From positions 1 to 37,024 of the IMG/VR virus record IMGVR_UViG_3300045973_000984: a stretch of 37,024 bases of DNA; one strand, 5' to 3'. The notes beneath the pieces are model-generated. The model ran no database searches. It saw nothing but the letters and a program-made list of their open reading frames with translations, and was not told the origin of the DNA. A program made the position numbers and the translations under genes. Positions 5,747 through 30,833 of this stretch are shown here, piece after piece; position 1 is the first letter of the stretch; every line of letters starts with the position of its first letter. The stretch is from a virus.

Positions 5747-5776
5747 GTAAACATTCCGTGGGTGGTTCTTACACCC
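5747..5776 (+). promoter_or_regulatory. Bipartite start-proximal element, copy 1
   Basis: GTAAACAT (5747-5754), 8 bases, TGGTTCT (5763-5769), then 7 bases to the ATG at 5777. The same boxes with identical 8-base spacing occur at 21698-21720. It lies between the primase stop and the GroES-like start. It may be a promoter giving a nearly leaderless transcript, or a phage-specific control site. No experimental support is available. Confidence 0.45.
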
Positions 5777-6361
5777 ATGAAGATTAACGTAATGCCGGGC
5801 CGGATTCTTGTTAAAAAGTATGAGGTAAAACTCAAAGGATCCATCATGCTGCCGCCGAGTCGCACCAAGATGTACGAGATCGGCCAAGTCGTCGATAACG
5901 GCAGCCTCCAGAAATTCGGACAGGACGGAAAATTCTCGACGGCGGAGACATACAAGCCGGGTGATCTCGTGCTGTTCATGCTGCCTTCATTCTCTTTGCC
6001 TGGAATTTCATTCGACATCAAGGGCGTGTCTCACTGCTTCCTCAATGCCGGAGACGTGATCGCCCGGCTGGCGAACGACACCATCGAGATCAAATCATTC
6101 CAGATCACAGGTGTTTACGTGCTGCTGCTTCCCACACTGCGCCAGACAGGGGCCATCATCATTCCCAGCGCCGCAGAAGAAGCCAAGAAGGAAAACCTCC
6201 ACTTTAGCGTGCTCCAGACGGGGCGTGACGTGAAAGAATCGTTCGACCAAGGCCAAGAAGTGTTCCCGGACAAGGGCCGGATCAATCCGCTCGTCATCGA
6301 CGGCCAGGACTACGCGTACGTTGACTATCAATTCATCTATGGCTCTCTGAGCATCGACTGA
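5777..6361 (+). CDS. Tandem GroES/Cpn10-like co-chaperonin
   Basis: A 194-residue protein with two consecutive GroES-like folds. Domain 1 (about 1-98) has MPGRILVKKYE, then GSIMLPPS where GroES has its GGI[VI]LP mobile loop, YEIGQVVDNG matching the GEVVAVG strand, KPGDLVLF, and DVIARL at the end. Domain 2 (about 107-190) repeats this order: GVYVLLLP, TGAIIIPSAA, HFSVLQTGRD, a degenerate GQEVF, and VIDGQDYAYVDYQFIYGSL matching the GroES C-terminal strand. Phages use Cpn10 homologues (T4 gp31) to help the host chaperonin fold the capsid protein. Tandem Cpn10 is known from chloroplast Cpn20. A GTG 15 bases upstream is in frame, but the ATG at 5777 is preferred because it begins the domain and has the GTTCT-N7 element. 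No GroEL homologue lies in the window. Domain 2 is the more divergent copy. Confidence 0.75.
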   Translation: MKINVMPGRILVKKYEVKLKGSIMLPPSRTKMYEIGQVVDNGSLQKFGQDGKFSTAETYKPGDLVLFMLPSFSLPGISFDIKGVSHCFLNAGDVIARLANDTIEIKSFQITGVYVLLLPTLRQTGAIIIPSAAEEAKKENLHFSVLQTGRDVKESFDQGQEVFPDKGRINPLVIDGQDYAYVDYQFIYGSLSID

Positions 6362-17078: not shown

Positions 17079-18752
17079 ATGATAAATCCGGTTTCAATTC
17101 CTTCTGCTGCTGCCATCTCCTACGGAGACGGCGATGTCCGTCACTTCGGCGAAGGAGACGCAATGGACGTGCCCGGCATGTCCAACCCCACACGCCATCT
17201 CGCAGATCGGGATGTGATCTTGGCTAAAAAGCTGAATGAGGTCATCGCTGATGTGAATAACAAGGAGCAGTATGTCCCGATGCCTATCCTGCGGACCACG
17301 CTGCCCCCGAACGCAGAGGAGATCATCCAGAACTTCCGAATCCCTCCGAATTTCGAGTGCCGGGTGCTGAACGCGACCGTCACGTCGCTGCCTGCGTCCG
17401 CCAGCGCAGAGTTGGACATCTACTATGCCTCAAACAGCTACGGCAACTCGACAGGCACTCAGATTGTCAGCACGTCCACGGAATACACCGGGGGCACGAC
17501 ATTCTTCTCCAGCGGTGAACTGGTCATCACTCTGAAAAACAGAGGTGGATCCACGCTGGAAATGATAGCGTCGGTCCTGCTCACTCTTCGGCCTATCGGA
17601 TCGACATCCAGTTATCTGCTGACCTCGGCCACGGCGGCCCCCGCAGGTCCTCCTGGACAGAGGGGATTGCAGGGCGTCCCAGGTGTTGCCGGACCTGCCG
17701 GGTCTCAAGGAAGTCCGGGTCTGGTGTGGAGAGATACCTGGTCAAATTCACCAGGCATTTACGCTGACAAAGACGTTGTATTTTACCAAGGGTCGTCGTG
17801 GAAAGCGACTGCCGCGACGGTGGCAACCGATATCCCTGGATCAGCTCCGTCAAAATGGACGCTCGTCGCTAAAGAGGGTGACCCAGGTTTCAACTGGAGA
17901 GGAGATTACAGTGATGCGATTGCCTACGCCGTAAATGATGCTGTTTATTACCCGCCCAACGGCAACAGCTACGTGTGCGTCGCAATAGCAACAGGATTAA
18001 ATCCTCCTGCTAATCCTAGCAAGTGGGGCATCATCGCCAAGGCCGGAGCGAACGGTCTCAACTATAGGGGCGTGTGGACGAACGTGCCTTCACCTGTTTA
18101 CGCCCAAGGAGACGTTGTAAACATTGCTGTATCTCCTGGAGTTTACCAGACGTACGTGGCTACTTCCACGGGCGTGTCCGCAATTCCTCCTGCCGGAGAC
18201 TGGAGTGCCTTGTTCAGCTCACCGGCGAATGGTTTTTCGGTCAAGAGCGCATCCGGCACGATTTACACGGAGAGTGACTTTTCGCTATTAAGCACCTCTG
18301 GCCCTTACACCAGTGTGGCATCTGGCACAACGTGGCCGGTGTTCACGGAAATCACTGTCGGAGATGCCACTAGCGGTCGCGGGATGAGGGTGCTCAAGTT
18401 CAACCAGTATGCCAGGTGGCTGGGTTCGATCACATTGAAGCTGCCATCTGTCACAGGCCTGTCCGACGCAGCTTCTACGAATTGGCAAGTTTCTGATGTC
18501 GTCCTCAGCACGAATAACCCTGGGGCTGGATCTCCGAGTGCAGACACCTCCCGAACACTTCAATCTTCAGGAACTGTCAGCACGGTGCAGGCTTCCACGA
18601 ATCAAGGATTTGGAGTCACATCCTACGGAACAATCACCAGTTCGTCGTTCGTACAGTCCGGGAACAAGGTCACAATCACAAATCCGGTGGGCAGTGCAAC
18701 GAACAGCTACCTGGCGCTGATTGGATTCTCGGTTTACGCTCCTGCGCCTTAG
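17079..18752 (+). CDS. Tail fibre-like protein with collagen stretch and carbohydrate-binding repeats
   Basis: A 557-residue fibre or adhesin. Residues 1-185 are the probable attachment part. Residues about 190-214 form an uninterrupted collagen-like Gly-X-Y run of eight triplets (GPPGQRGLQGVPGVAGPAGS and onward), a trimeric rod. Residues about 216-270, 271-327 and 328-386 are three related modules of the chitin-binding CBM5/12 type (W, then Y, GDxV or NDAV, and a closing W, each about 55 residues). The first two end in a short K-x-G-x-x-G segment (KEGDPG, KAGANG). The C-terminal 170 residues are a Ser/Thr-rich beta region that probably contacts the receptor. It ends 3 bases from the convergent gene at 18756. 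Start at 17079 lacks a Shine-Dalgarno sequence. Confidence 0.75.
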   Translation: MINPVSIPSAAAISYGDGDVRHFGEGDAMDVPGMSNPTRHLADRDVILAKKLNEVIADVNNKEQYVPMPILRTTLPPNAEEIIQNFRIPPNFECRVLNATVTSLPASASAELDIYYASNSYGNSTGTQIVSTSTEYTGGTTFFSSGELVITLKNRGGSTLEMIASVLLTLRPIGSTSSYLLTSATAAPAGPPGQRGLQGVPGVAGPAGSQGSPGLVWRDTWSNSPGIYADKDVVFYQGSSWKATAATVATDIPGSAPSKWTLVAKEGDPGFNWRGDYSDAIAYAVNDAVYYPPNGNSYVCVAIATGLNPPANPSKWGIIAKAGANGLNYRGVWTNVPSPVYAQGDVVNIAVSPGVYQTYVATSTGVSAIPPAGDWSALFSSPANGFSVKSASGTIYTESDFSLLSTSGPYTSVASGTTWPVFTEITVGDATSGRGMRVLKFNQYARWLGSITLKLPSVTGLSDAASTNWQVSDVVLSTNNPGAGSPSADTSRTLQSSGTVSTVQASTNQGFGVTSYGTITSSSFVQSGNKVTITNPVGSATNSYLALIGFSVYAPAP

Positions 18753-23180: not shown

Positions 23181-25103
23181 ATGATTCGCATCATTGAAGG
23201 GCCTACGAAGCTCAAGCTGGTTGGTGAAGACTGGGAATTAAAGACCCTGCACCTGCTCTTTCGCGTGCATCCAAAGGGTTACGAGCACGCGCCGTCTCAC
23301 AAGGCATTTGTGATGACGAATGGTCAGGATGGGTGGGATGGCTATATCTCTCCTATCCGCATTTACCAGAGAGGCACCGCAGACTGCCTCCGGGGTCACC
23401 GGGATCGGATCATCGCAGCCTGCCTGGAGAAGGGTATCGAGACAGATACCAGCCAATGCCTAGTATCTCCGTTCAAGACCTTGACGACGGATGACATCCC
23501 GGACGACATCGTCGTGGCCGACTTCAAGTTGGATCAGTATCAGCGAGAGGCTATCGTGCGCTGGCTGAACGCTGGGATGGGCATAAATAAAATTGCAGTT
23601 TCTGGCGGGAAGAGTTGTGCTTTCGCAGCGGTGGCTGCCATGATCAAGCGCCGGTTCCCTACAGAGCGTATTCTTTACGTCACCCAGAGCGAGCGGCTTG
23701 TAAGGCAAGCCTACAAGGACTTCACGGGGTTCCTTCCAGGGTTCGACATCACGCAATACGGGGGTTCTGCGAAGGACAACACCGGAAAAGACATCGTAAT
23801 CGCGACTATTGCAATGATTTGGAGAAACCGTCAAGAGCTAACTCAGACAAAGTGGTTTAGAGAATTTACGGCTGTCCTGGTGGACGAGGCTCATCACGCA
23901 TCTTCCTCATCCGCTAAGCAGCTTCTAATGCAGCTACCCTGTTTCTTCCGGCTCGGCGCTTCTGATACGGTCCATATTGAAGACAAGGTCAAGTCAGACA
24001 CGATGGTCGGGCTTCTCGGGCCAGTCCGCTACACGGTGCCGGTGGCCACCTACATCGCCTTGGGACGGTCTGCCAAGCCTACCATCTACCTTGTGGAGAA
24101 TCGTGAGTGGATCAACAAGCACAAGAAATATCCTCACCAAGCAGAGCCGAACACCCCGGCTTGGTGCCTGGTCGAAGGCGATTGGAAGCGCGGCACCTAT
24201 GTAGGACCTGTTTACGAGCGAGACGAGAACGGGGAGATCGTGATGCGCAAGGTGCGCGAGCTTGAAGGCACCAATGACACCAAGGTGGACGCGGCAGGCC
24301 GGGTGATCCTACGCAAAGTGCAGGATGCAGACAAGCAGGGAGGCTACACCTGGCAGGACAGAGAGGGTCACGTGGTCAGCGCGGCAGATATGGAATATGA
24401 TCCAGGCCTGTCAACGCTCGTTGACTCCAAGACGGCGAACTGGATCGAGGTCTTGAAGCCTGTCGTGTTGGACGGCTATCACTCTGTACAGTTCAAGGGT
24501 GATGATCATGCTTTCGACGTGGATTCCCGCTACTGCATCTTGGATCGGGTCATCGACAAGGCGATCACGAGTTTCAAGGAGCGCAACCTCCTGATCGTGG
24601 AATGGGCCAAGTATTACTCCAAAGTGAACAACTGGCCCACCCTCGTGGTCTGCACCCGCACGATGCACGTGCTGATCCTGGAGACGCTGCTGAAGCGTGC
24701 GCTAGGCGATGACATGGTTCAGGTGCTGTTCAGTGACCACACCTCCAAGCAGCGCGACGAGGCCTTCGACTGGTTCAAGAGTACCCCGGGGAGCGTCTTG
24801 ATCAGCCCGCTGGTCAAGGAGGGCGTGTCCATTAACGAGATAAAAGCAGGCATCATATCCGATTATATCACCGGGGCTGAGGCATTCGGGCAGATTCTGG
24901 GCCGGTTCATCCGCAAAAAGAAAGAAGGGGACAACACGGCTTTCATCACGGCTTTCCTCGATGTTCAGCACCCCAGCCTCCGAAAAGGGTCCCGAGCGAT
25001 GTTTTCAAGACTGTTCAATATCCGAGGGTATACTTTCGCCTATCCCTGCCTCGGCCCGAGCACCATCGCTTCCGCAAAGGTGTACGAGCGCTTGGACGAG
25101 TAG
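23181..25103 (+). CDS. SF2 DNA helicase, UvsW-like
   Basis: A 640-residue superfamily 2 helicase resembling T4 UvsW, which unwinds branched DNA and R-loops and switches origin-dependent to recombination-dependent replication. Motifs in order: DYQREAI-type Q/Ia region (KLDQYQREAIVRWL), Walker A IAVSGGKSCAF (near residue 137), motif Ib, motif II VDEAHH, motif III region FRLGASDT, motif V VSINEIKAG, and motif VI QILGRFIRKK with the arginine finger. Between III and IV lies an extra segment of about 130 residues (300-430) that is charged. The N-terminal 100 residues are a probable DNA-binding domain. A perfect dyad lies just upstream. The gene is followed by the winged-helix protein at 25135 after 31 bases and lies next to the candidate origin. 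Confidence 0.8.
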   Translation: MIRIIEGPTKLKLVGEDWELKTLHLLFRVHPKGYEHAPSHKAFVMTNGQDGWDGYISPIRIYQRGTADCLRGHRDRIIAACLEKGIETDTSQCLVSPFKTLTTDDIPDDIVVADFKLDQYQREAIVRWLNAGMGINKIAVSGGKSCAFAAVAAMIKRRFPTERILYVTQSERLVRQAYKDFTGFLPGFDITQYGGSAKDNTGKDIVIATIAMIWRNRQELTQTKWFREFTAVLVDEAHHASSSSAKQLLMQLPCFFRLGASDTVHIEDKVKSDTMVGLLGPVRYTVPVATYIALGRSAKPTIYLVENREWINKHKKYPHQAEPNTPAWCLVEGDWKRGTYVGPVYERDENGEIVMRKVRELEGTNDTKVDAAGRVILRKVQDADKQGGYTWQDREGHVVSAADMEYDPGLSTLVDSKTANWIEVLKPVVLDGYHSVQFKGDDHAFDVDSRYCILDRVIDKAITSFKERNLLIVEWAKYYSKVNNWPTLVVCTRTMHVLILETLLKRALGDDMVQVLFSDHTSKQRDEAFDWFKSTPGSVLISPLVKEGVSINEIKAGIISDYITGAEAFGQILGRFIRKKKEGDNTAFITAFLDVQHPSLRKGSRAMFSRLFNIRGYTFAYPCLGPSTIASAKVYERLDE

Positions 25104-25134: not shown

Positions 25135-25899
25135 ATGGAAAACACAATTCCAGATCACGATATTCGTTTTCGCACACCGATGCCTGAGGAAGAGCAGAAC
25201 GGGCATCTGCATAAATTCAACCCTGCCGTGGCTGCAACGCACGGCATAAACGCTGCCGTGGTCTATCAGTGCATCCGTTGGCACTGCCTGGAGCCTAAAA
25301 ACAAGAGCAGGAGCTGGAAGGTGTCCCACGCTGACCTGATCACGTACCTGCCTTACTTGACTAAAATGATGCTGCGCACAGCCTTGTCGAAATTAACGCG
25401 CAGGCATCACGTGACCGGCAGGCTGTTGTTGGCAGCCGAAGACGGGGCTGACAGGGTTTACTCTTTAGGCCGAGAGGCCGAGAAGGCTGCTGCGCACTCG
25501 TTTGACACTGAAATGGCGATCAAGCACGGGATACTGCCCGCAGTAATCTATGACAACATGGTGTACTGGATCGCAGAATCAGTGGATATCGCTGACGATC
25601 TCATCCCTTGCGTAGCCACCTCTCCCACTGCGTGGTCTAAGCTGCATCCGTATGCGCCCTTGCGGACGGTTAATAGGGCTTTCGCTATCTTGGAAACGTC
25701 AAGAGAGATAGGCAGGATAGTCAGAAAGACTAAAAATAGGGCACCTTACTGGGCCATCCCTCTCGGGGCTGGAAAGCTGGATCGCTGGTATTACCTCCAC
25801 TCGAAGACTAAAAAGAAGGCGGACGCCGCTAAGGCAGCATCTGAAATTCCGGTCAGAGTCTGCGATAAGACGCCTTCGTTCGATCCTGATCTCGACTAG
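25135..25899 (+). CDS. Duplicated winged-helix replication initiator-like protein
   Basis: A 254-residue protein built of two similar winged-helix units. Unit 1 (about 28-110): AAVVYQCIRWHC, WKVSHADLITYLPYLTKMMLRTALSKLTRRHHV. Unit 2 (about 125-220): PAVIYDNMVYWI, then SPTAWSKLHPYAPLRTVNRAFAILETSREIG. Each unit has a helix followed by a winged helix in the order found in phage replisome organisers and DnaD/RepA-type initiators. The C-terminus is basic and lysine-rich. Directly downstream is an iteron array, the classic arrangement of a Rep protein and its binding sites, so it is proposed to initiate replication there. ATG at 25135 has GTTCT exactly 7 bases upstream. Alternative: transcription regulator of the same fold. 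Confidence 0.6.
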   Translation: MENTIPDHDIRFRTPMPEEEQNGHLHKFNPAVAATHGINAAVVYQCIRWHCLEPKNKSRSWKVSHADLITYLPYLTKMMLRTALSKLTRRHHVTGRLLLAAEDGADRVYSLGREAEKAAAHSFDTEMAIKHGILPAVIYDNMVYWIAESVDIADDLIPCVATSPTAWSKLHPYAPLRTVNRAFAILETSREIGRIVRKTKNRAPYWAIPLGAGKLDRWYYLHSKTKKKADAAKAASEIPVRVCDKTPSFDPDLD

Positions 25900-25970
25900 T
25901 ATGCAACTGCCTTACTATATTGAGTTTATAGAATGTTTACAAATCAATAGGCAATTTAGAAGGCCATTTG

Positions 25971-26046
25971 GCCAAATTAACACACCTCAGTGCCAAATTA
26001 ACACACCTCAGTGCCAAATTAACATAGGCTTGGCCAAATTAACACA
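25971..26046 (+). repeat. Iteron array, four direct repeats
   Basis: Four direct copies of GCCAAATTAACA[CT]A start at 25971, 25992, 26013 and 26033, spaced 21, 21 and 20 bases, about two helical turns, so all face the same side of the DNA. Copies 1 and 2 are identical across the full 21-base unit including the CCTCAG spacer. Copy 3 has CATA instead of CACA. The first copy lies within the palindrome ATTTGGCCAAAT. Confidence 0.8.
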
Positions 26047-26166
26047 GAAACATCAATTCCGATCAAGCGGGCATTGAGAGTCAAAATGACAAGATCTATT
26101 AGAAGATTATTTAAGGTCTGCTACGCTTACGCTACGCAAACCAAGATCCAATGAAAAGATAGCAAA

Positions 26167-26221
26167 CGAGGCTTAAAAAGCCTCGCTCGCGGCCTTCGGC
26201 CAAGTGGGTCACTTCGTGACC
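26167..26221. repeat. Three tandem hairpins
   Basis: Three adjacent dyads: CGAGGCTT/AAGCCTCG with an AAA loop (26167-26185), GGCC-TTC-GGCC (26191-26201), and GGTCAC-TTC-GTGACC (26207-26221). Two share a TTC loop. No T-tract follows, so they may be origin secondary structure or an mRNA leader for the gene at 26288. Confidence 0.5.
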
Positions 26222-26287
26222 TTCGCTTCGCCGGGTGACGCGAACGAGAGCGGAAACGGAGGAAGACTGAAAGGAGGAAGAGAAGGA

Positions 26288-26497
26288 ATGAAAGAAAGCA
26301 CAGAAGGAAGCGAAGGAAGCGAAGGAAGCGAAGGAAGCGAAGGAAGACGGCAGGGCATGGAAGCAATAAGAAGGAAGCTGGAAGAAGAGAGCCTGAGAGC
26401 ACGCATCAGGGAATGTAGCGAAGCGATAGCAAGAATGAAAGAGGAGGAAGTAGGGAGCACTATCCAGAGATGTGGCACGAGCGAAGCGAGCAGATGA
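26288..26497 (+). CDS. Small protein with Gly-Ser-Glu repeats and helix
   Basis: A 69-residue protein starting MKESTEGSEGSE. Residues 6-19 encode tandem Gly-Ser-Glu units from a 9-base DNA repeat. The remainder is a charged, probably coiled-coil helix (AIRRKLEEESLRARIRECSEAIARMKEEE). ATG at 26288 is preferred over a GTG at 26204 because it has a strong AAAGGAGG about 10 bases upstream, the clearest Shine-Dalgarno sequence in the window. Its TGA overlaps the ATG at 26494 (ATGA), consistent with coupled translation of the next gene. Function unknown. A non-coding repeat is the alternative. Confidence 0.45.
   Translation: MKESTEGSEGSEGSEGSEGRRQGMEAIRRKLEEESLRARIRECSEAIARMKEEEVGSTIQRCGTSEASR
26303..26347 (+). 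repeat. 9-base tandem repeat
   Basis: Four perfect GAAGGAAGC units (26303-26338) and a fifth with the last base changed (26339-26347). It encodes in-frame Gly-Ser-Glu repeats in the small gene at 26288, and may vary in copy number by slippage. Confidence 0.75.
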
Positions 26498-28943: not shown

Positions 28944-30833
28944 ATGGCAGAGGAATCACTTAATACCGAGCTACTGCTGCGACAAGTCTTGGAGGATGAA
29001 GACGATGACGCCATCAACCAGAGCGATTTAATCCCTAAGGGAAAGGTGATCGAAGGCCCGTGGACGTTTGACACTGTGGCGAGAGGCCAACACAACTTAG
29101 GAATGCCCTTTAACCCGGAAGGGCTGTACGACATCGTCGCGCGGTGGAAGGGCAGGACTGTTTACGAACAGCCATCTAAGACACGGTCGGTCAAGAAGAC
29201 GCTTAAACAGCTACAGGACTCGATTTTATCGTTCGAGGACGCCCTTCCCTATGATCCTGCCCGGTTCAAGGATCCTATCGACTGGTTCATGGCTGCCAAG
29301 TGTGCGATGACCGGAGAATCCTGCCAGGATCAAGAGGTGGACGAGTCCTTGCTCAAAGAGGACGAAGACGACGATGCTATCGACCAGGGTGACCTGATGA
29401 CTCCGATTGCTCCTCCGATAGAGGAGGTGCGGAAGTGGCTGGAGGAAAATACGGACGCTGAGGATAATGCCGCGTACAATGATCCAGAAGAGGACATTAG
29501 GTATAAGTTTTCAAGCTGGGGCCTGTATCACGGCACGACGGTAGATGTTGCGAATGCCAGGGGGTTTGCCAAGAAGTATAAGTTCGTTCACTTGGAGGAG
29601 TCTGCGGACCACGACGAAGGCCACGCTGAGATCGTTGATAACGAATTGCCAGACGTTCCAGGCGATGAGTTTGAGAAATTTAAGGAGGATTTTGAAGGTT
29701 TAAGCGACTATCCTAGCTTGGACGACGAGGTATGGAGTTCGGTTCAATCGGAATTCCAAGACAAGCAGTGGGACTCGTTCTGGAAGAAAGAGTTCAAAGA
29801 CAGTCTCGTAAAAGAATATCCATACCTGAATGGCATTATAGACGCCCTTTACGAGGGCGACTATTTCTACGAGATGGTCCACGAGGCTGAGGATCACGCG
29901 AATGAGGTCTGGATCGAAGAGACAGGGTGCAGCTTCCATTATCGAACAGAAGCAGTGATGAAGCATATCACCGTGGAAGAGCTGCTGAAATACGCAGAAA
30001 TGGAGCCGGAACGGCAATACGAGGAATTTTCGGAGTACACTCAGAAGGATTTTACCGGGGTGCTGGTGGAGTATTTTCCAGACCGTAAAGCAGGGATTGA
30101 CGCAGTCATGGCGACCCCTACCGGGTTTGCCTTGTTCAAAGATGCCGTTAAGAGATACAATTCAGGGGCATCTGAATATTGGCACATCATTGAAGAGATG
30201 ACTCCTGCCTTTCTAAACCACTGGCTGCCGATTAAAGGTTCGCAACCAGGCCCTGGACAGGCAACCTTGCCACTGGGCGAGACAGAGGGCGTGCACGACC
30301 ATTCTTGCGTGATGGCGACCGTGGCAGATGAAGTTTCTGGCGCGGTGATCACCTGGGGCAGAACCCGAGTGGATGACGAGGATGTTTACGAAGGTGAAGG
30401 CGACGATGTAAAAGGCCGAGAGAACGAGCCACACGTGACCGTGCTCTACGGGCTGACTGAAACGAAGCCCAGTCCCGAGCTGCTGAAGATCATCGAGGAT
30501 ACCAAGCCGTTTACCGTGGAGGTAGGCACTTCGTCGATGTTCGAGAACGAGGAATACGACGTGCTCAAGTTCGATGTGGAAAGCGAAGACTTGAGGGCGC
30601 TCAACACCAAGCTGAAGGAGCTGAACTACACGGAGACGCATCCAGGGTATCATCCCCACCTGGCTGTGGCTTACGTGAAAAAGGGCACCTGCAAAGAGGC
30701 TACAGGCCAGCATCTCATGGTCGGCGATGACGAAGGAAAGGTCGTTTTCGAGGTGAACGAGGTCGTGTTTAGTGGCAGCGGCGAAGAAGGGACCAAGACA
30801 ACCCTGTTTCTCGGAAAGCCTAACGTGCTGTAG
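28944..30833 (+). CDS. Modular EDEDDDAI protein with C-terminal 2H phosphodiesterase
   Basis: A 629-residue protein sharing modules with its neighbour at 26494. EDEDDDAI signatures begin at residues 16 and 137 (nucleotides 28989, 29352). Module 5 has the LPYDPARFKDPIDWF end motif. The middle contains two related units with FKDSLVKEYPYLNGII and FTGVLVEYFPDRKAGI, the latter ending in LNHWLPIKG; they match FINGLIEKFPAYAEKI and RHWLNPVP in the neighbour. The C-terminus (about 450-600) is a 2H phosphodiesterase: PHVTVLYG holds the first His-x-Thr (H497, T499) and PHLAVAYV the second (H572), where Ala574 replaces the usual Thr/Ser. 2H enzymes cleave 2'-5' or cyclic phosphodiesters; phage Acb1 degrades CBASS signals. 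An anti-defence or virion role is inference. The serine/threonine loss at the second motif may weaken activity. Confidence 0.7.
   Translation: MAEESLNTELLLRQVLEDEDDDAINQSDLIPKGKVIEGPWTFDTVARGQHNLGMPFNPEGLYDIVARWKGRTVYEQPSKTRSVKKTLKQLQDSILSFEDALPYDPARFKDPIDWFMAAKCAMTGESCQDQEVDESLLKEDEDDDAIDQGDLMTPIAPPIEEVRKWLEENTDAEDNAAYNDPEEDIRYKFSSWGLYHGTTVDVANARGFAKKYKFVHLEESADHDEGHAEIVDNELPDVPGDEFEKFKEDFEGLSDYPSLDDEVWSSVQSEFQDKQWDSFWKKEFKDSLVKEYPYLNGIIDALYEGDYFYEMVHEAEDHANEVWIEETGCSFHYRTEAVMKHITVEELLKYAEMEPERQYEEFSEYTQKDFTGVLVEYFPDRKAGIDAVMATPTGFALFKDAVKRYNSGASEYWHIIEEMTPAFLNHWLPIKGSQPGPGQATLPLGETEGVHDHSCVMATVADEVSGAVITWGRTRVDDEDVYEGEGDDVKGRENEPHVTVLYGLTETKPSPELLKIIEDTKPFTVEVGTSSMFENEEYDVLKFDVESEDLRALNTKLKELNYTETHPGYHPHLAVAYVKKGTCKEATGQHLMVGDDEGKVVFEVNEVVFSGSGEEGTKTTLFLGKPNVL

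Follow-up and report, generated by a model that had tools for sequence, protein, structure and literature searches.

Iterons are a standard component of lambda O-type phage origins, and the lambda O protein recruits the helicase via its partner P. At ori-lambda four iterons spaced by about 20 bp are situated beside an A/T-rich tract and are bound by the phage initiator, which possesses a winged-helix (wH) domain, iterons inside its own gene, and a variable C-terminus (PMC7466680). The same plan is characteristic of the RepA_N initiator of plasmid pSK41, in which the A-tract-centred iterons are also intragenic (PMC5703833), while PLE RepA of the Vibrio cholerae satellites is a RepA_N initiator with A-tract-centred iterons in non-coding DNA (PMC7145576). 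RepA_N initiators contain a single wH domain per chain together with a C-terminal domain, which contacts DnaG in pSK41. The Rep_3 initiators (RepE, pi, and RepA) combine two wH domains per chain with direct iterons of about 20–22 bp located outside the gene.

The closest sequence relatives of the protein described here belong to phrog_11233 and its kin (phrog_6493, 428, 270, and 678), for example, the replication protein of Flavobacterium phage elemoE/F and that of Vibrio phage 1.247. These proteins carry the same wH domain in one copy, followed by a C-terminal domain, and their genes contain iterons directly after the wH-coding region and often a 25-bp element. The locus under study was found in the linear IMG/VR virus record IMGVR_UViG_3300045973_000984, the whole of which (37,024 bases) was analysed and is designated below as the window. 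In contrast to the phrog_11233 kin the wH domain is present here twice, the C-terminal domain and the 25-bp element are missing, and the iterons follow the stop codon and are spaced by 21 bp instead of 22 bp.

Gene content around the locus

By its gene content the window is most readily taken as part of the genome of a large T4-like myovirus: it encodes a portal protein akin to the portals of 160–600 kb phages, a baseplate wedge subunit, an SbcD-like nuclease, a primase, and GroES (a GroES-like co-chaperonin at 5762–6361; Cpn10, 2e-9). No terminase or major capsid protein was found among the window proteins scanned; therefore the genome is probably incomplete.

The initiator-like gene is preceded by a gene for a UvsW-like SF2 DNA helicase (23181–25103, plus strand), which matched phrog_16 DNA helicase (2.6e-38) and, in tblastn, the uvsW genes of T4-like phages. 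A gap of 31 bp separates this gene from the initiator gene, which follows on the same strand, and the two are likely members of one operon. The original prediction expected a GC-skew inflection at about 26 kb, which was not seen, as there is no sign change at fourfold-degenerate sites; the cumulative GC-skew minimum is near 22–24 kb and coincides with the switch to plus-strand genes, and the check is uninformative owing to the change of gene orientation at 21.7 kb.

The tandem winged-helix protein and its single-domain relatives

The initiator-like protein of 254 amino acids (25135–25899, plus strand) resembles nothing in Pfam or NCBIfam, while in PHROGs it is labelled “replication initiation protein” (phrog_11233, 4.4e-11). 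A profile of the relatives, built without the window protein, matched it twice and gave no other significant match in the window. The first wH domain (about residues 24–112; 25204–25470) was recognized with an i-E-value of 2.2e-7 and aligned over the entire domain, and the second (about residues 119–222; 25489–25800) with an i-E-value of 1.6e-12. Direct alignment of one half of the protein with the other scored 51 against 26.5 ± 4.5 for shuffled sequences, none of 2000 reaching it, and either half used as query retrieved the same single N-terminal domain in about 44 viral proteins. A search with an alignment headed by the window protein retrieved 44 viral contigs, and in those whose protein was matched by both halves the matches fell on one and the same N-terminal domain. 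Both copies are full-length across the domain and the 254-codon frame is intact. The wH domain of this protein thus belongs to a phage initiator family and its duplication is real, as was foreseen from the sequence when a duplicated winged-helix protein was noticed there. In the phylogenetic tree both domains are situated on very long branches, and the tree therefore does not tell a duplication within the gene from a fusion between paralogues.

The second domain was modelled by AlphaFold from a 54-row alignment as a wH fold, with pLDDT mostly 85–95 in its blocks and about 67 around the wing; an alignment-free model (pLDDT 36) was discarded, and the first domain lacks a confident model because MAFFT places every relative on domain 2. 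The best structural matches of domain 2 were the N-terminal domains of RepA_N initiators, including those of plasmids pSK41 and pTZ2162, which ranked first, third, and fifth in VIA-align (4pql, Z 8.3; 4pt7, Z 8.1; 5kbj, Z 7.5), and PLE RepA (4ro3, Z 6.6) was also among the top matches; however, Z values of about 8 are near the usual wH background, and the family comparison consequently rests mainly on sequence. Neither Pfam RepA_N (PF06970) nor Pfam Rep_3 (PF01051) gave a match at E ≤ 10. The likeness to Rep_3 initiators, which likewise combine direct iterons outside the gene with a chain containing two wH domains, is one of plan only and not of homology; the duplication arose here in a different family. 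The sequence comparison with lambda O was made through the “O-like” PHROGs matches of the kin: all 54 members of the alignment matched phrog_11233 “replication initiation protein” and 44 matched “replication initiation O-like.”

Phages, prophages, and bacterial chromosomes supplied about 150 relatives, drawn from viral contigs as well as bacterial genomes with some overlap of loci between the searches; each has one wH copy, none being doubled. Neither a two-domain relative nor another genome arranged in this way was found, close relatives of the entire 254-aa protein were absent from IMG/VR and GTDB genomes, the iteron pair pattern had no match elsewhere in IMG/VR, and a helicase-based search yielded no relatives of the locus. 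The C-terminal domain of the relatives, which would serve helicase/primase recruitment, had no match in the 254-aa protein or anywhere in the window.

Most inspected single-domain relatives contain about three repeats with 22-bp spacing inside their own gene, directly 3' of the wH-coding part. Most of these repeats, of the type CCATTTGCCCAAAAGGTCAAATG, are imperfect palindromes centred on an A-tract; they are visible across 54 aligned origins, and for most of the 28 genes examined none of 100 shuffles scored as high for repeats as the gene itself. Many relatives therefore have intragenic iterons. In many of them the iterons are followed by the 25-bp element CCTATACCAGATATAAACACAGATA, which encodes PIPDINTD and is missing in some kin as well as in the window. 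The element is shared at DNA level by initiator genes of diverse phages: it was found exactly in 43 IMG/VR contigs, always in the same reading frame, and in 42 of them the ORF also encodes a recognizable wH domain upstream of it. Among 15 non-redundant PIP genes, selected by protein similarity, the codons CCT ATA CCA/T are used in 13, against 4% predicted from codon usage, and ATA stands for Ile in all 15, including loci with 50–55% GC; conservation of CCTATACCAGATATAAACACAGATA thus exceeds the protein level. With a 35-nt query containing it, identity over most of the query length was 100% in Flavobacterium phages and 93–97% in Vibrio phages. According to these data CCTATACCAGATATAAACACAGATA is probably an origin element; a literature search found no paper naming either the element or PIPDINTD.

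In this way the comparison revealed a phage initiator family of wide distribution, marked by intragenic 22-bp iterons and by a conserved 25-bp element, and the phage origins predicted from it can be put to the test. Closely similar single-domain members are also present in many Rhodobacteraceae genomes, mostly on large chromosomal contigs, and may mark a common prophage or satellite.

The iteron array and its flanking DNA

The four direct repeats noticed originally were confirmed. The core GCCAAATTAACA (12 nt; 14–15 nt if a few mismatches are tolerated) is identical in all four copies, at 25971–25982, 25992–26003, 26013–26024, and 26033–26044 on the plus strand, with spacings of 21, 21, and 20 (TRF score 108). 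The four copies occupy the stretch 72–146 bp after the ORF 25135–25899. The array scored 42, whereas the best of 100 shuffled sequences reached 30, and the exact 11-mer CCAAATTAACA occurs at these four sites only in the 37 kb. The window iterons are direct repeats and not palindromic. A fifth iteron-like site within the gene (25388, 2 mismatches) was dismissed, as chance matches of that quality are expected.

The iterons are located in the longest non-coding gap of the window, which measures at least 304 bp, or 570 bp if the doubtful ORF 26204–26497 is not a gene. This ORF is purine-rich and has an odd composition at fourfold sites, and about five tandem copies of GAAGGAAGC are found within its purine-rich stretch (26303–26346). 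The A/T-rich patch expected after the repeats is present (26073–26122, among the ten most easily melted 50-mers of the window), but a stronger one, not anticipated, precedes them: the stretch 25911–25960, between the gene and the iterons, is by duplex stability the second weakest of all 50-mers in the window and represents a candidate unwinding element. The expected hairpins were found as well, one at 26162–26190, strong, with a 13-bp stem and terminator-like on the minus strand, and another at 26207–26221 (GGTCAC-TTC-GTGACC); folding of 26150–26250 gave a z of −3.5.

The window DNA was compared with the iterons of the relatives by a matrix constructed from three repeats of each of 25 non-redundant origins, the window excluded, and both strands were scanned. 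Of about 74,000 sites in the window this matrix ranked first the site 25961–25982 (AGGCCATTTGGCCAAATTAACA), comprising iteron 1 and its flanking bases, and with column-permuted matrices a site in the iteron 1 region was first in 1.8% of 500 trials. The first matrix, made from 54 unthinned origins and the two repeats nearest to the 25-bp element, placed iteron 1 second (25961, 11.2), the top score (16.1) falling at 17162 within the tail fibre gene, so the result depends somewhat on matrix construction. At the same place CCATTTGGCCAAAT (25964–25977, plus strand) differs by 1 mismatch from the family iteron core CCATTTGCCCAAAT and includes the 12-bp palindrome ATTTGGCCAAAT, and the single occurrence of the 14-mer CCATTTGSCCAAAT in the window is at iteron 1. 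The first iteron of the window hence resembles the iterons of the relatives. Only iteron 1 with its flank scores well on the family matrix; iterons 2–4 share GCCAAAT and are devoid of the left arm CCATTTG. The best match to CCTATACCAGATATAAACACAGATA in the window is 16/25 and lies elsewhere than after the iterons. A crude palindrome score was dropped, as units of the window and of the family were not distinguished by it, and triple-site matrix scores, probably A/T-driven, were set aside.

Possible role in replication and alternative readings

The occurrence of a phrog_11233-type protein together with a matrix match at iteron 1 indicates that the protein and its likely target fit one family. 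Because protein family and target DNA agree independently, the earlier suggestion of an iteron origin adjoining its initiator is supported, and we consider it likely that a large T4-like myovirus here possesses a theta-type phage origin accompanied by its initiator; origin function is here deduced from sequence. Against this reading stand the missing C-terminal recruitment domain and 25-bp element, the good family match of one iteron only, the flat skew at fourfold sites, and the occurrence of wH domains in plain regulators too.

According to the origin reading the protein, as two tandem copies of the wH domain that phrog_11233 and O-like initiators carry once, would bind the four iterons, which at a 21-bp spacing would be presented one per two helical turns on a single DNA face. 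The bound iterons would be bent into a nucleoprotein array, the adjoining A/T-rich DNA (25911–25960 and/or 26073–26122) would be opened by the initiator, and the phage replisome would then load at the opened DNA, as at ori-lambda or RepA_N origins. The general plan of four iterons, an A/T-rich tract, and a phage initiator is that of ori-lambda, except that the lambda iterons lie inside O and those of the window outside the gene. The relatives are expected to bind their palindromic 22-bp iterons as a dimer, by analogy with RepA_N, while a single chain of the fused, two-domain protein could suffice to recognize iterons that are asymmetric and non-palindromic. As a guess, the neighbouring UvsW-like helicase may aid replisome loading where the C-terminal domain is absent.

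A more specific version of the origin reading is only tentatively proposed and is rather doubtful as a whole: a T4-like myophage would replicate from a dedicated iteron origin, its initiator having arisen by tandem wH fusion, on a path parallel to that of the Rep_3 plasmid initiators, and reading asymmetric iterons as a single chain, while the origin would have moved outside the coding sequence and the UvsW-like helicase would help strand opening or replisome loading instead of a C-terminal domain. T4 itself initiates from transcript-primed R-loops. If true, this version would provide a protein-directed origin in a T4-like large phage, unlike T4, and a clean case of a palindrome-binding initiator turned into a two-domain reader of direct iterons.

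As an alternative, the protein might have lost its C-terminal initiation domain and bind the four sites as an operator array, repressing or activating either the genes from 26470 or its own operon. Such a role would account for the missing C-terminal domain, for the position of the iterons between the gene and the next plus-strand gene, and for the hairpins and promoter-like matches close by; nevertheless, every annotated relative is an initiator, the most meltable DNA of the region flanks the iteron array, and four direct repeats at 21 bp, placed 3' of a gene, are commonly met in origins but seldom in the operator of a promoter, which makes a regulator unlikely. Less probable still is a decayed or captured origin, that is, a remnant initiator-origin cassette of another phage kept as a competitor which titrates or blocks the initiators of related phages. 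The very long branches of both wH domains, the loss of the C-terminal domain and the 25-bp element, and the prevalence of the kin in smaller phages, as opposed to the large T4-like phage here, are consistent with this explanation, but both domains are complete in an unbroken 254-codon frame, and the near-identical iterons suggest maintenance or recent expansion and not decay. The initially suggested phage-plasmid, in which an extrachromosomal prophage would be replicated by a plasmid-type Rep and iterons, is very improbable despite an anatomy like that of iteron plasmids and a domain fold resembling RepA_N plasmid initiators, since no homologue was found in plasmid records, no Rep_3, RepA_N, ParA, or ParB match was obtained in the window, the ribbon-helix-helix protein mentioned originally was not recovered by Pfam RHH_1 at E up to 10, large-myovirus structural genes are encoded in the same record, and the same iteron-bearing protein family serves phages directly as initiators. 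Of these points the missing Par genes are weak evidence, because the window covers only part of a large myovirus genome.

Away from the candidate origin two further regions of the window were distinguished. The segment 1–4463 encodes glycosyltransferases and a methyltransferase-like protein, and its first 3.5–4 kb have 45% GC against 52–57% across most of the remaining sequence, suggesting recent acquisition. Downstream, a protein of 629 amino acids (28944–30833) contains a C-terminal 2'-5' RNA ligase/Acb1-like (anti-CBASS) domain (Pfam 2_5_RNA_ligase2, 3e-9; Acb1, 0.0012).
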